A program made the translations under genes and the position numbers. 64,000 nt of DNA from Rikenellaceae bacterium. GTDB lineage: Bacteria > Bacteroidota > Bacteroidia > Bacteroidales > Rikenellaceae. Shown one piece after another: positions 55,283 through 59,816 of this stretch (position 1 is its first letter; each line of letters begins with the position of its first letter). The notes under the pieces were generated by a model. That model worked only from the letters and a program-made list of their open reading frames with translations, was not told the DNA's origin and made no database searches. The DNA is taken from NCBI GenBank assembly GCA_021201795.1, contig JAJQEF010000003.1:62001-126000 (forward strand), in the 5' to 3' direction.

Positions 55283-57061
55283 ATGACCCTTGTACAACTT
55301 TTCAAAAAGATAAGCAGTTATATAAAACCCTATAAATGGCTGCTGGTTTTGGCTCTTATATTAACCTTTATAGGATCCCTTGCAGCTCAGGTAAATGCCT
55401 GGGTATTGAGGTATACGGTCGATAAGGTAAATGATCTTACGGTAAGTGAAAGAGCTTTTAACGAGGGATTATCCATACTGGGAACGATCTCGGCAATACT
55501 TATCGGAAAAGAAATTATAAATTCTTTCATTCAGTTCGGACAGAAATACTATGGAGAGAGACTCCGAATTCTTGTAGCAAGGGATCTTGCACAGGATATT
55601 ATAGACAGAATCTTAACTTATAGGTTGGCATTTTTTAGTTCAGGCGGTAATAAATCAGGAAAACTACAGACCCGTATAGACCGGGGAATAGAGAGTCTTA
55701 CCCGGTTGATACAGAATTTTTTCATAGATATACTTCCCCTGTTTGCAAATTCCGCAGTAGCGCTTATAGTAATGTTCAATGCGAATTTTTATGTAGGTCT
55801 CGTAGGGTCGAGTATAATACCTATTTATTTCTATGTCAGTTGGTTGCAGGCGAAAAAACTACGCGGCGCACGTAGAAAAATAAAAGATCTGAGGGAAAAC
55901 AAGAGTCAGGGGATAATAACTATTCTGGACTCCATTACGGTCATAAAATTTTTTATTCGTGAGGATATGGAAGGAGCCCGGCAGTTGGCACTGCAAAACA
56001 GCCTCACAGAAACACAGCTTAAAACGAGGAGAATAAGTTTTCTTTTCGATGGAATAAAAAGTTTTATAGAGCAGATAGGGGTGGTTATAATTATAATCCT
56101 CACGGTATTTTTTGTTTTGAGAGGGGAAATGACAATAGGTGCCATAATGTTTCATATTTTACTTTTTAATAATGTTTCTGCACCGATTCGACAGCTTCAC
56201 AGGATTTATGATGAGATGAACGATGCTCTTATTTATTCTGAAAGTTTCTTTCAAATCATGGAAGCTGGGCATCAGGTGGAATCCTCGGGAAGTTATAAGC
56301 CGAATAAAATATCCGGTAAATTTGAAATAAAGGATATGAATTTTACTTATCCGGATAACGATCTTCGCACTCTCGAAGATATAAATATGGTGATAGAACC
56401 CAATAAGATTACTGCACTGGTAGGATTGTCCGGGGCCGGAAAAAGTACTTTGATAAATCTTCTGGATAAATTTTATCTTCCGGACTCAGGAGAAATCACA
56501 TTGGACGGTAGATCACTGGACGATTATGATACGGCTTATTTGCGTGATAATATAGGTCTTGTATTACAGAAGAATCATATTTTCAATGGTACAATACTTG
56601 AAAATATTCGTTATGGTAATCCGGATGCCTCCATGGAAGAAGTGATAGAGGCATCGGTGAAGGCTTATCTTCATGGACAGATTGAGAAAATGCCTGATGG
56701 CTACGATACTCCCGCAACCTCTCTATCAGGCGGTCAACAGCAAAAAATTGCTATTGCAAGAATGTTTAGTAAGAATCCTCCTATAATTTTTCTCGATGAA
56801 CCTACCGCAAGTCTCGATGCCATATCTACACAACAGATCAAGGAGGGATTGGATGCAATAAAAAAAGATCGTACTGTGATAATTATTTCACACAGTATAT
56901 CTCAGATAGTAGATTCCGATGTTATTTATGTCATGAAAGATGGCAGGGTCGTGGAATCTGGCACACATGATGAATTGTATGTAAAGGAGGTCACTTACAG
57001 GGAGATATTCGATTCTATGGCAAAAAGTATGAATTTGGATAAAATATCCGGATATGTTTAA
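55283..57061 (+). CDS. ABC transporter, fused permease and ATPase (exporter type)
   Basis: TMD followed by VGLSGAGKSTLINLLDKFY Walker A, LSGGQQQKIAIARMF signature, IIFLDEPTASLD Walker B. Confidence 0.93.
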   Translation: MTLVQLFKKISSYIKPYKWLLVLALILTFIGSLAAQVNAWVLRYTVDKVNDLTVSERAFNEGLSILGTISAILIGKEIINSFIQFGQKYYGERLRILVARDLAQDIIDRILTYRLAFFSSGGNKSGKLQTRIDRGIESLTRLIQNFFIDILPLFANSAVALIVMFNANFYVGLVGSSIIPIYFYVSWLQAKKLRGARRKIKDLRENKSQGIITILDSITVIKFFIREDMEGARQLALQNSLTETQLKTRRISFLFDGIKSFIEQIGVVIIIILTVFFVLRGEMTIGAIMFHILLFNNVSAPIRQLHRIYDEMNDALIYSESFFQIMEAGHQVESSGSYKPNKISGKFEIKDMNFTYPDNDLRTLEDINMVIEPNKITALVGLSGAGKSTLINLLDKFYLPDSGEITLDGRSLDDYDTAYLRDNIGLVLQKNHIFNGTILENIRYGNPDASMEEVIEASVKAYLHGQIEKMPDGYDTPATSLSGGQQQKIAIARMFSKNPPIIFLDEPTASLDAISTQQIKEGLDAIKKDRTVIIISHSISQIVDSDVIYVMKDGRVVESGTHDELYVKEVTYREIFDSMAKSMNLDKISGYV

Positions 57062-57084
57062 AAGAAGGGCCGCCGGGAGTGCAT

Positions 57085-57410
57085 TCATTAACCCTCAAAT
57101 ATGAAAAAATATATTTCCCGACGACCCCGGAAGTGTAACTTCCCGTTTTAAAGTCAAATTACATTTGCCAGAGCCTCGGGGCGAAATTATATTATGCCCA
57201 TCAATAAAAGCATGAAACTCCAGCCTGCGTATCAAGGCCTGCAACAGCCCGAGTAGGACAGGCGGAGTTCATGCCGAATGATGAGACATGAACTCTTCCA
57301 CCTTGCCTATAAACCTACTCACAGTACAAATGTTGCAGTTTTGACACTTAATAGGTTTCAGTGAAGTTGACCGGATTTCCGGTACTTCATCACAAAGATA
57401 ATCCAAATAA
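57085..57410. ncRNA. Candidate structured non-coding RNA (family not identified; strand uncertain)
   Basis: No ORF; GC-richer than flanks; hairpin GGAAGT-GTA-ACTTCC (57129-57143); extended stem GCATGAAACTCCAGCCTG/CAGGCGGAGTTCATGC (57210-57274); competing hairpin AGTTCATG/CATGAACT (57266-57294). Confidence 0.4.
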
Positions 57411-57504
57411 ATGAATTTACAAAAAAATATTTATTAATATTTTTTTTAAGAATCATAAGCAAAATGAAAGAATTAGGTGTGTTTTCGCTATTGTAAAACT
57501 TGGT

Positions 57505-57888
57505 TTAGTTTCTAATTTCTTCTACAGTGTTGTGAAGATCCTTTCTCATATCTTGTCTTTGTTCGAAATTATCTTCCCTTCTTTCCTGTCTTTGCTCGAA
57601 ATTCTCCTTCCGTTCCTGTTGATTTTCTTTGAAATCTTCGATTTTCTCCTTGCGTTCTTCTGAGGTATTGGAAGTATTCTGAAGTCTGTTTTCGAAATTA
57701 CGCTCCCTGTCTTCCTGTCTGTCTTTAAATCTTTCTTCTTTGTTTTCTTGTCTTTGCTCGAAGTTTTCTTTACGTTCCTGTTGGTTTTCTTTAAAATCCA
57801 CCTGTCTTTCTGCGGTAGTTTCTGCACTTACGTTTACTGCTGCCAGTAATCCGAAAAGAAACATAGCAGATACAATAGTCTTTTTCAT
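57505..57888 (-). CDS. Secreted, highly charged coiled-coil protein with 11-residue (hendecad) repeats
   Basis: Signal peptide MKKTIVSAMFLFGLLAAVNVSAET; F at 11-residue spacing: F-KENQQERKEN-F-EQRQENKEER-F-KDRQEDRERN-F. Confidence 0.75.
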   Translation of the reverse strand: MKKTIVSAMFLFGLLAAVNVSAETTAERQVDFKENQQERKENFEQRQENKEERFKDRQEDRERNFENRLQNTSNTSEERKEKIEDFKENQQERKENFEQRQERREDNFEQRQDMRKDLHNTVEEIRN

Positions 57889-58014: not shown

Positions 58015-59061
58015 TTAATAGAGATAAATCTCCCGAAGTCTCTCGATATCAGTATCCAGAATATCCGTTATAAAATAATTCAGGGATCCGTATTCCTGCT
58101 CTATTTTATCGAATGCCGCATCGAGATATGGCCCTCGTACTTCGAATACTGGTTTCAATACGGGGAATTGTTCTATATACGCAGCATATTTTACACTTAC
58201 ATATTTGTTCGAAAGAAGATAGTCTTCCGTTACGGTTTCCCTGTCGACTCCAAGAGCGGAAAGTAATAAGGCAGAGGCGATTCCTGTACGGACTTTACCG
58301 GCGGTACAATGATAAAGCAGGGGAAGATTTCCTTCGTTTTTCAAAAGATTGAAAAATTCCCGGAACTGCTTTACGCAATCATTGTCGGTTACCATGAGTT
58401 TATACATATCCGTCATAGCCGTTTCGAGATTATCCTGGGTTATATCCCCTCTCATTATTATATCCTGGAGATTTCCCGGGCTTATCGAAAGTTCATATCT
58501 CTCTTGTACCGAGACAGGCATTTTATCCGGAGCAGAGTTAATTTCCGAAGCTGCGCGAAAATCAACGATCGTTTTTATCGGAATACTTGCAAGATATTCC
58601 AAATCTTCTTCGGTTAAACCCTTGAGTTCGTCGGAACGAATGACTTTCCCTCATTTTACGTATTTACCATCCTTTGTCCTGTATCCGCCCATATCCCTGA
58701 AATTATATCCGCATGTCAATGGAAGGTGTCTCTCCGCGATAATGGAAGTCCCTTTGCCGGTTTCGAAAAGAAAGTAGCTGCGGATGGAATCCGGAACATC
58801 TATGCTGTATGTACCGGAACCGTTTCCGGATAATACCGCTTCATTGAAATCGATGCTGTTTATATTCTTTCCGGCATATAGTTTCCATTCGCTTCCGGTA
58901 TTTACCTCCGAAATGGCCTGTCGGGTTTCATTATCCCTATAAACGGTTGCGTCATGGCTCATATCTTCACCGCTGTATGTTGCTTTTTTCATTTCTTGAG
59001 GATTGTTCTTGCAAGATACGAAGAATGCCGAAATTGCAAAAAGAATATAGTAAAATTTCAT
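58015..59061 (-). pseudogene. Tyrosine-protein phosphatase (Y_phosphatase3-like) lipoprotein, interrupted by one in-frame TGA
   Basis: Lipobox ISAFFVSCKNN; CGYNFRDMGGYRTKDGKYVK-*-GKVIRSDELKGLTEEDLEYLASIPIKTIVDFR in one frame; catalytic HCTAGKVRTGIA. Confidence 0.85.
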
Positions 59062-59156
59062 AACCCATTTTTTACGGTTAGTACAAATTAAATGCCCTGA
59101 CCGGATAACTAATGTTAAATTTATCGATAATTTTGTATCGAACCAAATTTTATAAA

Positions 59157-59816
59157 ATGCCCAGACTTCTATTTTACTTGTCGCTATGTTCGGTATTGTT
59201 ATCATCATGTACTGTTTCAAGGGATCTGCCGAGGGAGTTCTCGGCACAGTCTTATGAATTTAACGGACCCGTCAAAACTGACAATCAGCGAGAATATATA
59301 ATTCTTAATCCTGATTTTTATGAAAGAACTAAAATCGACTCTTTTGAGTGGAATTTCGATACTTTGGGTATGATCCGGACCATGAAAGGAGAGGATGAGA
59401 AGGAATTTCGTTATGAGCATTCGGGAAATAAAACTTTTATGATGGATTCGGAAAGTGACCAGATTCTGGTTGAATTCGAAGTTTTCGATGGAAATGAAAA
59501 AAACAGGGTAATAAAAAATAGTACCAATATAGATGGAAATGTATATGTAGTTTATTCTCATTTTTTTTATAAAAATGGATATATGGTCGGTTCTGAATAT
59601 ATTGCACCTAATGACGCGACCGTCTCTATTAATATGAAAAGAAAAAAAGTACTTGTAACAAAATATTCCATTTCTACGGAAGGAATGGAATTTACTTCCT
59701 ATTATGACTATAAAAAATTCGACTCATATGGTAACTGGATCTCCAGAGTATCTACTATTAATTCCTATGATGAGATTTCGTACAGGCTCGAAGAGCGGGA
59801 ATTCGAATATTATTAA
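59157..59816 (+). CDS. Lipoprotein of unknown function
   Basis: MPRLLFYLSLCSVLLSSCTVSRDLP lipobox; 219 aa. Confidence 0.6.
   Translation: MPRLLFYLSLCSVLLSSCTVSRDLPREFSAQSYEFNGPVKTDNQREYIILNPDFYERTKIDSFEWNFDTLGMIRTMKGEDEKEFRYEHSGNKTFMMDSESDQILVEFEVFDGNEKNRVIKNSTNIDGNVYVVYSHFFYKNGYMVGSEYIAPNDATVSINMKRKKVLVTKYSISTEGMEFTSYYDYKKFDSYGNWISRVSTINSYDEISYRLEEREFEYY

Follow-up and report, generated by a model that had tools for sequence, protein, structure and literature searches.

The DNA examined here (the window) is a 64,000-nucleotide stretch of contig JAJQEF010000003.1 from a Rikenellaceae bacterium, and the segment of interest, positions 57085-57410 of it, has no ORF that reaches 50 aa. It is bordered on one side by a convergent ABC exporter gene and on the other by a minus-strand gene (57505-57888) for a 127-aa secreted coiled-coil repeat protein, which lies directly upstream of the RNA described below and keeps that position in the only other species of the genus compared (the genus relative, G001). 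The coiled-coil protein has no Pfam match, and a protein search with it found nothing. Also on the minus strand is a Y_phosphatase3 lipoprotein gene (58015-59247) that is seemingly split into two ORFs, by a frameshift or an assembly error; the genus relative has it as a single ORF of 348 aa (L028:9578-10624).

The functional strand of the segment is the minus strand. Its predicted fold reaches -114.8 kcal/mol, compared with -89.2 +/- 5.1 kcal/mol for shuffled sequences (z -5.0, better than 100 of 100 shuffles); the plus strand also beats 100 of 100 shuffles, with a weaker z of only -3.4. Two short ORFs with TTG starts (49 and 45 aa) can be read on the minus strand, and the genus relative has gaps across both whose lengths are not multiples of three. 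Promoter and terminator signals point to transcription of the locus, with an RNA that would start near 57392. Table 1 lists the elements.

A preliminary description of this DNA had proposed a structured RNA with mutually exclusive stems, and that much stands. The elements it named are all present, as is the freedom from ORFs: the hairpin GGAAGT-GTA-ACTTCC (within 57129-57144), an interrupted stem in which GCATGAAACTCCAGCCTG (57210-57227) faces CAGGCGGAGTTCATGC (57259-57274), and the partner for a competing stem, CATGAACT (57287-57294). It overlooked the minus strand, the full extent of the rod, the U-rich run after the competing stem and the promoter, and it merged the GGAAGT/ACTTCC hairpin, which is part of a separate 3' module, with the rest.

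Table 1. Elements of the minus-strand RNA, in window coordinates
Feature	Position	Strand	Details
Bacteroidota-type promoter	57393-57427	-	TTTG at 57420-57423, 19 nt, TATCTTTG at 57393-57400; from the sequence
Short 5' hairpin	57360-57390	-	GAAGUACCGG-AAAU-CCGGUCAACUUC; from the fold; retained with altered sequence in the genus relative
Rod (conformer A, proposed antiterminator)	57224-57358	-	helices H1 to H5 and apical hairpin; about 130 nt
Rod strands	5' strand 57285-57358; 3' strand 57224-57275	-	covariance model score 138.6 bits
Hairpin T (conformer B)	57314-57358	-	AAACCUA...UAGGUUU; predicted lowest-energy fold of the growing RNA before c' is made; complementarity retained in most relatives
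Segment c	57331-57338	-	CUGCAACA; pairs with c' (helix 3, 93% paired); predicted to lie open in the hairpin T loop while the RNA is nascent
f (5' arm of apical hairpin)	57285-57295	-	GAGUUCAUGUC; from covariation
f' (shared strand)	57264-57275	-	GGCAUGAACUCC; partner either f or f''
Segment c'	57239-57246	-	UGUUGCAG; flanks GGGC (57247-57250) and GCCU (57235-57238) able to close a small hairpin
f'' (3' arm of competing terminator-like stem)	57210-57221	-	GGAGUUUCAUGC
U-rich run after f''	57203-57209	-	UUUUAUU; weak and short in the window copy
Variable spacer between f''/U-run and 3' module		-	42% identical in the genus relative
3' module	57060-57146	-	hairpin GGGAAGUUACACUUCC, then terminator GGGGUCGUCGGG...CUCCCGGCGGCCC with conserved loop UUUUUUCAUAUUUGAGGGUUAAUGAAUG and U-run

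Spread and genomic setting of the RNA family

The genus relative keeps the gene order of the locus, with 85% identity in the rod and 81% in the 3' module. Beyond the genus, a DNA similarity search at the level of BLAST returns promoter-like fragments only, and a search of a phage collection gives no match. A covariance model of the rod was built from just two sequences and then iterated. The two-sequence model detects one more copy in the window's genome and further copies in a second genus, two-sided changes being evident by then at 21 of 45 pairs; the second model adds tandem and additional copies; and the third (E<=0.01) finds the RNA in 60 of 268 Rikenellaceae genomes, representing 12 of 22 genera, at one to six copies per genome. 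The window's own genome has six. The second of these also stands alone, on the plus strand at C43:126810-126980 (about 64810-64980 in window numbering, L015), roughly 800 bases past the window end and 7.5 kb from the window copy; the other four lie elsewhere in the genome.

Among 393 genomes sampled from the order Bacteroidales, 22 match, including members of 15 families besides Rikenellaceae, while a sample of the phylum (396 genomes) adds just three other genomes, all from one other family. In all, 103 relatives (nearly all Rikenellaceae) were aligned, and 24 more come from Bacteroidales and that one other family. Three IMG/VR contigs carry the RNA, and so do at least three named plasmids, from Bacteroides ovatus, Parabacteroides distasonis and Phocaeicola massiliensis. 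Some loci (L090, L114, L018, L019, L021, L036) have two or three copies close together, some of them in tandem.

None of the Rfam 15 covariance models, those for tmRNA, RNase P RNA, SRP RNA and 6S RNA included, matches the core in the window or in the 46 loci examined. (The RNase P RNA of this genome sits on a different contig.) No description of this RNA class turned up in the literature searched. It would appear that these are undescribed, multi-copy two-state attenuator RNAs of Bacteroidales; a partial sampling of Bacteroidota genomes has yielded some 130 members, either aligned or confirmed.

In most relatives a gene on the same strand starts 8-170 nt downstream of the RNA; a minority have no downstream gene. 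Where the nearest downstream gene is within 200 nt, it is on the same strand in 60 cases and on the opposite strand in 13. A promoter box, TAnnTTTG, occurs no more than 120 nt upstream in 85 of the 103 relatives, compared with 7.4 expected from shuffled sequence. Both features are external to the covariance model, and they favor action in cis by most members. The genes that follow encode YpsA/SLOG proteins, lipoproteins and other secreted proteins, and PEGA, TM2, Sel1-repeat and DUF1896 proteins, along with many proteins that have no Pfam match; among them no common function or obvious pathway could be seen. Immediately after the leader, the gene family encountered most often is YpsA/SLOG, which occurs there in several genera (L017, L052, L075, L077, L123, L124, L125). 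In the annotated plasmids of B. ovatus and P. distasonis, the RNA lies in unannotated sequence just ahead of a CDS of the dihydrofolate reductase family.

One subgroup has a minimal ORF that begins at the ATG of GCCTATG, 45-97 nt upstream of the core (e.g. L042, L048, L053, L099, L133, L140). All 24 of these are 1-5 codons long, compared with 39% of other upstream ATGs giving six codons or fewer, hinting at input from the ribosome in that subgroup. Ribosome-mediated control was rejected as a general mechanism, the mini-ORF being found in only 24 of 127 leaders and absent from the window copy.

The rod and the competing stem

In the 103 aligned sequences, 91.5% of rod pair cells are standard pairs, compared with 60.7% when partners are shuffled and 38-43% when the partner strand is slid, percentages that lean upward because the rod structure guided the alignment, which so carries some selection bias. 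Compensatory, two-sided changes are seen at 43 of the 44 rod pairs. On this comparative evidence the rod is genuine despite the bias, since two sequences were all that went into its first model and the pairing exceeds the controls by a very wide margin. The preliminary description had offered conservation and covariation in relatives as a check on its structure; the genus relative and the 103 aligned relatives decide that check firmly in its favor. Within the rod, near-invariant segments, (G/C)AAA / UUU and GGGY / RCCU, are unpaired and flank the freely varying helix c-c'. Small stems around c and c' (s1 and s2), which would make up a kissing-loop state, were considered for these bases; their covariation exceeds that of shuffles weakly, because the bases are nearly invariant, and we do not count them among the elements supported by covariation.

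The covariance model contains no f'-f'' pairs, but f'' does lie in unpaired columns of it, so that some selection bias attaches to the competing stem as well. Cognate f'-f'' pairing has a mean of -18.9 kcal/mol over the 103 relatives, versus -12.3 for non-cognate and -8.4 for shuffled partners, and the cognate pairing is stronger than the mean non-cognate one in 99 of the 103 (Wilcoxon p 3e-18). The cores change together: f' with GCGUG, GCAUG, GCACG or GCGCG is accompanied by f'' with the matching CACGC, CAUGC, CGUGC or CGCGC, and the same five f' bases are matched by both f and f'' in 79 of 127 members. This is therefore one strand with two conserved partners. At least four U follow f'' within the next 8 nt in 95 of the 103 relatives, and the f'-f'' stem with its U-run looks like an intrinsic terminator. 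Compensatory change thus preserves, in about 100 relatives, both of the pairings first described as mutually exclusive, and for that reason the conformational switch suggested with them is, as a property of the RNA, well supported by comparison.

At the window locus itself there is no same-strand gene downstream; its place is taken by a conserved 3' RNA module that has a terminator of its own (to about 57060) and whose loop, UUGAGGGUUA, recurs after the stand-alone copies Wc and G1c of the same genus. We therefore read the window copy as probably a stand-alone, attenuator-controlled small RNA, which is the weakest step of the interpretation.

A proposed switch and its alternatives

Folding of the window copy at nascent lengths places hairpin T in the minimum at 90-150 nt and the rod from 165 nt. 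As full conformers, the rod (-53.0 kcal/mol) is better than the terminator (-48.6 kcal/mol) by 4.4 kcal/mol; in other copies this gap runs from 0.2 to about 12 kcal/mol, some of the constrained terminator solutions in the comparison being false terminators. For all 16 sequences examined, the lowest predicted energy belongs to the rod, which frequently beats conformer B by 5-12 kcal/mol, and termination would for that reason have to be kinetic or aided.

The mechanism we propose begins with hairpin T, which would fold first during transcription and show c in its loop. Once c' and b' emerge, a c-c' contact could form, from which the 3' half would invade T and zip up the rod; the zipped rod would hold f' apart from f'', and RNA polymerase would read on. 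Should T persist, either stabilised or converted too slowly, f'' would capture f', and the resulting terminator would stop transcription at the U-run. In most relatives the switch would govern the gene that starts 8-170 nt downstream. For the window copy, read-through would append the 3' module, turning a short RNA of about 190 nt into a long one of about 330 nt. Candidate signals for the switch include a ligand, a protein, temperature, or a ribosome on a minimal upstream ORF, and the near-invariant bases beside c and c' may be a binding site or may form small stems that hold the loops open.

Our best reading, in which we have reasonable though far from complete confidence, is that the segment encodes, on its minus strand, a member of a new class of terminator/antiterminator leader RNAs, the window copy being most likely an attenuator-controlled small RNA. 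The folds and the breadth of the family rest on comparison; transcription, termination, switching and kinetics we infer.

A special case of this reading is a metabolite or second-messenger riboswitch, in which the invariant segments around c-c' would be a ligand pocket that chooses between rod and terminator. Near-invariant, rod-unpaired nucleotides beside a freely varying helix fit such a pocket, and several copies per genome before unrelated genes are also the pattern of second-messenger riboswitches. Against this, the invariant nucleotides can pair with one another (as s1 and s2), which may itself account for their conservation, and the functions of the genes give no hint of a ligand, which leaves the riboswitch a possibility we hold only tentatively. 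The fullest form of the idea, a new and widespread riboswitch-like Bacteroidota class in which two half-hairpins touching through their loops convert to one extended rod with the near-invariant bases as sensor, most copies switching genes for small secreted, SLOG-family or DHFR-like proteins and some (including the window copy) a non-coding RNA, is similarly speculative.

It is rather unlikely, though still worth weighing, that the family consists of unregulated, stand-alone, trans-acting sRNAs, f'-f'' being an ordinary terminator and the rod a refolding of the finished RNA. The members do carry a promoter and a terminator of their own, no same-strand gene lies downstream of the window copy, Wc, G1c or the g4 copies, and one to six paralogs per genome resemble sibling sRNA families. 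However, an ordinary terminator needs neither exclusivity with a conserved 130-nt rod nor a copy of f in f'', and this explanation does not fit the strong same-strand bias toward genes 8-170 nt downstream or the conservation of a 3' module past the first terminator.

Action as DNA (an integron attC-like site, a transposon end or a miniature inverted-repeat element) might be suspected from a long imperfect palindrome in several copies per genome, with diverse neighbor genes and some copies on plasmids and viral contigs, but is very improbable given the upstream promoter, the downstream U-run, the fixed orientation toward the start of the next gene, the frequent G-U pairs of the rod, copies too divergent for recent mobility, and neighborhoods (those of the largest clusters, judged by sequence and partly by Pfam) that show no recurring transposase, integrase or recombinase. 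Least probable of all is a 6S-type RNA that binds RNA polymerase, a resemblance raised in the preliminary description and suggested by the long rod with its asymmetric internal loop, low sequence conservation and own promoter, but contradicted by the absence of a 6S (RF00013) match at the locus or anywhere in the genome (E<=10), by up to six divergent copies mostly in leader position directly upstream of genes, and by a conserved competing 3' flank, which 6S RNA is not known to have.

Known systems and significance

Like this RNA, terminator/antiterminator attenuators and transcriptional riboswitches are leaders placed between a promoter and a gene, with two folds that exclude each other, one of them an intrinsic terminator. 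They differ in that two half-hairpins here combine into a complete rod as the antiterminator, f'' in the terminator repeats the sequence of a strand inside the rod, and some copies have no downstream gene. Rli55 and EutX are small RNAs controlled by an AdoCbl riboswitch, and there a switch determines whether a short or a long non-coding RNA is made, which is also what we propose for the window copy; structure and lineage are different, and no ANTAR hairpins or B12 element were identified here. The RNA shares with 6S RNA a rod with internal bulges and differs in context, copy number and the lack of a model match. DUF805b RNA (RF02914) is also a Bacteroidota cis-regulatory motif, but a separate one of 35 nt, distinct from the rod. 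One sub-threshold DUF805b match (L138:1419-1454, minus strand, 33.4 bits versus a cut-off of 35.6) falls between rod and start codon, and none was seen in other members.

The sibling sRNAs FopS and GibS of Bacteroides (FopS being 65-70 nt and trans-acting; PMC11697453) are likewise small structured RNAs in multiple copies with canonical Bacteroidota promoters, whereas the class described here has a predicted length of 190-330 nt, outside the size of FopS, a covarying rod, and a position mostly as leaders. HMP2_4205 is a 132-bp palindromic Bacteroidetes candidate of Fremin and Bhatt with a predicted terminator, near TPR genes (PMC8040213). Some members here likewise precede Sel1/TPR-like genes, and HMP2_4205, compared by description only, may overlap with this class. 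For B. thetaiotaomicron, a separate 6S RNA has been reported (PMC7366714).

The class is large and its covariation exceptionally strong, yet it is outside Rfam 15. Its existence suggests that gut Bacteroidales, and with them plasmids of Bacteroides and Parabacteroides, have a layer of regulation that would act mostly on uncharacterized small secreted proteins. As two conserved, competing folds share one RNA, the proposed mechanism should be directly testable by simple compensatory mutants.
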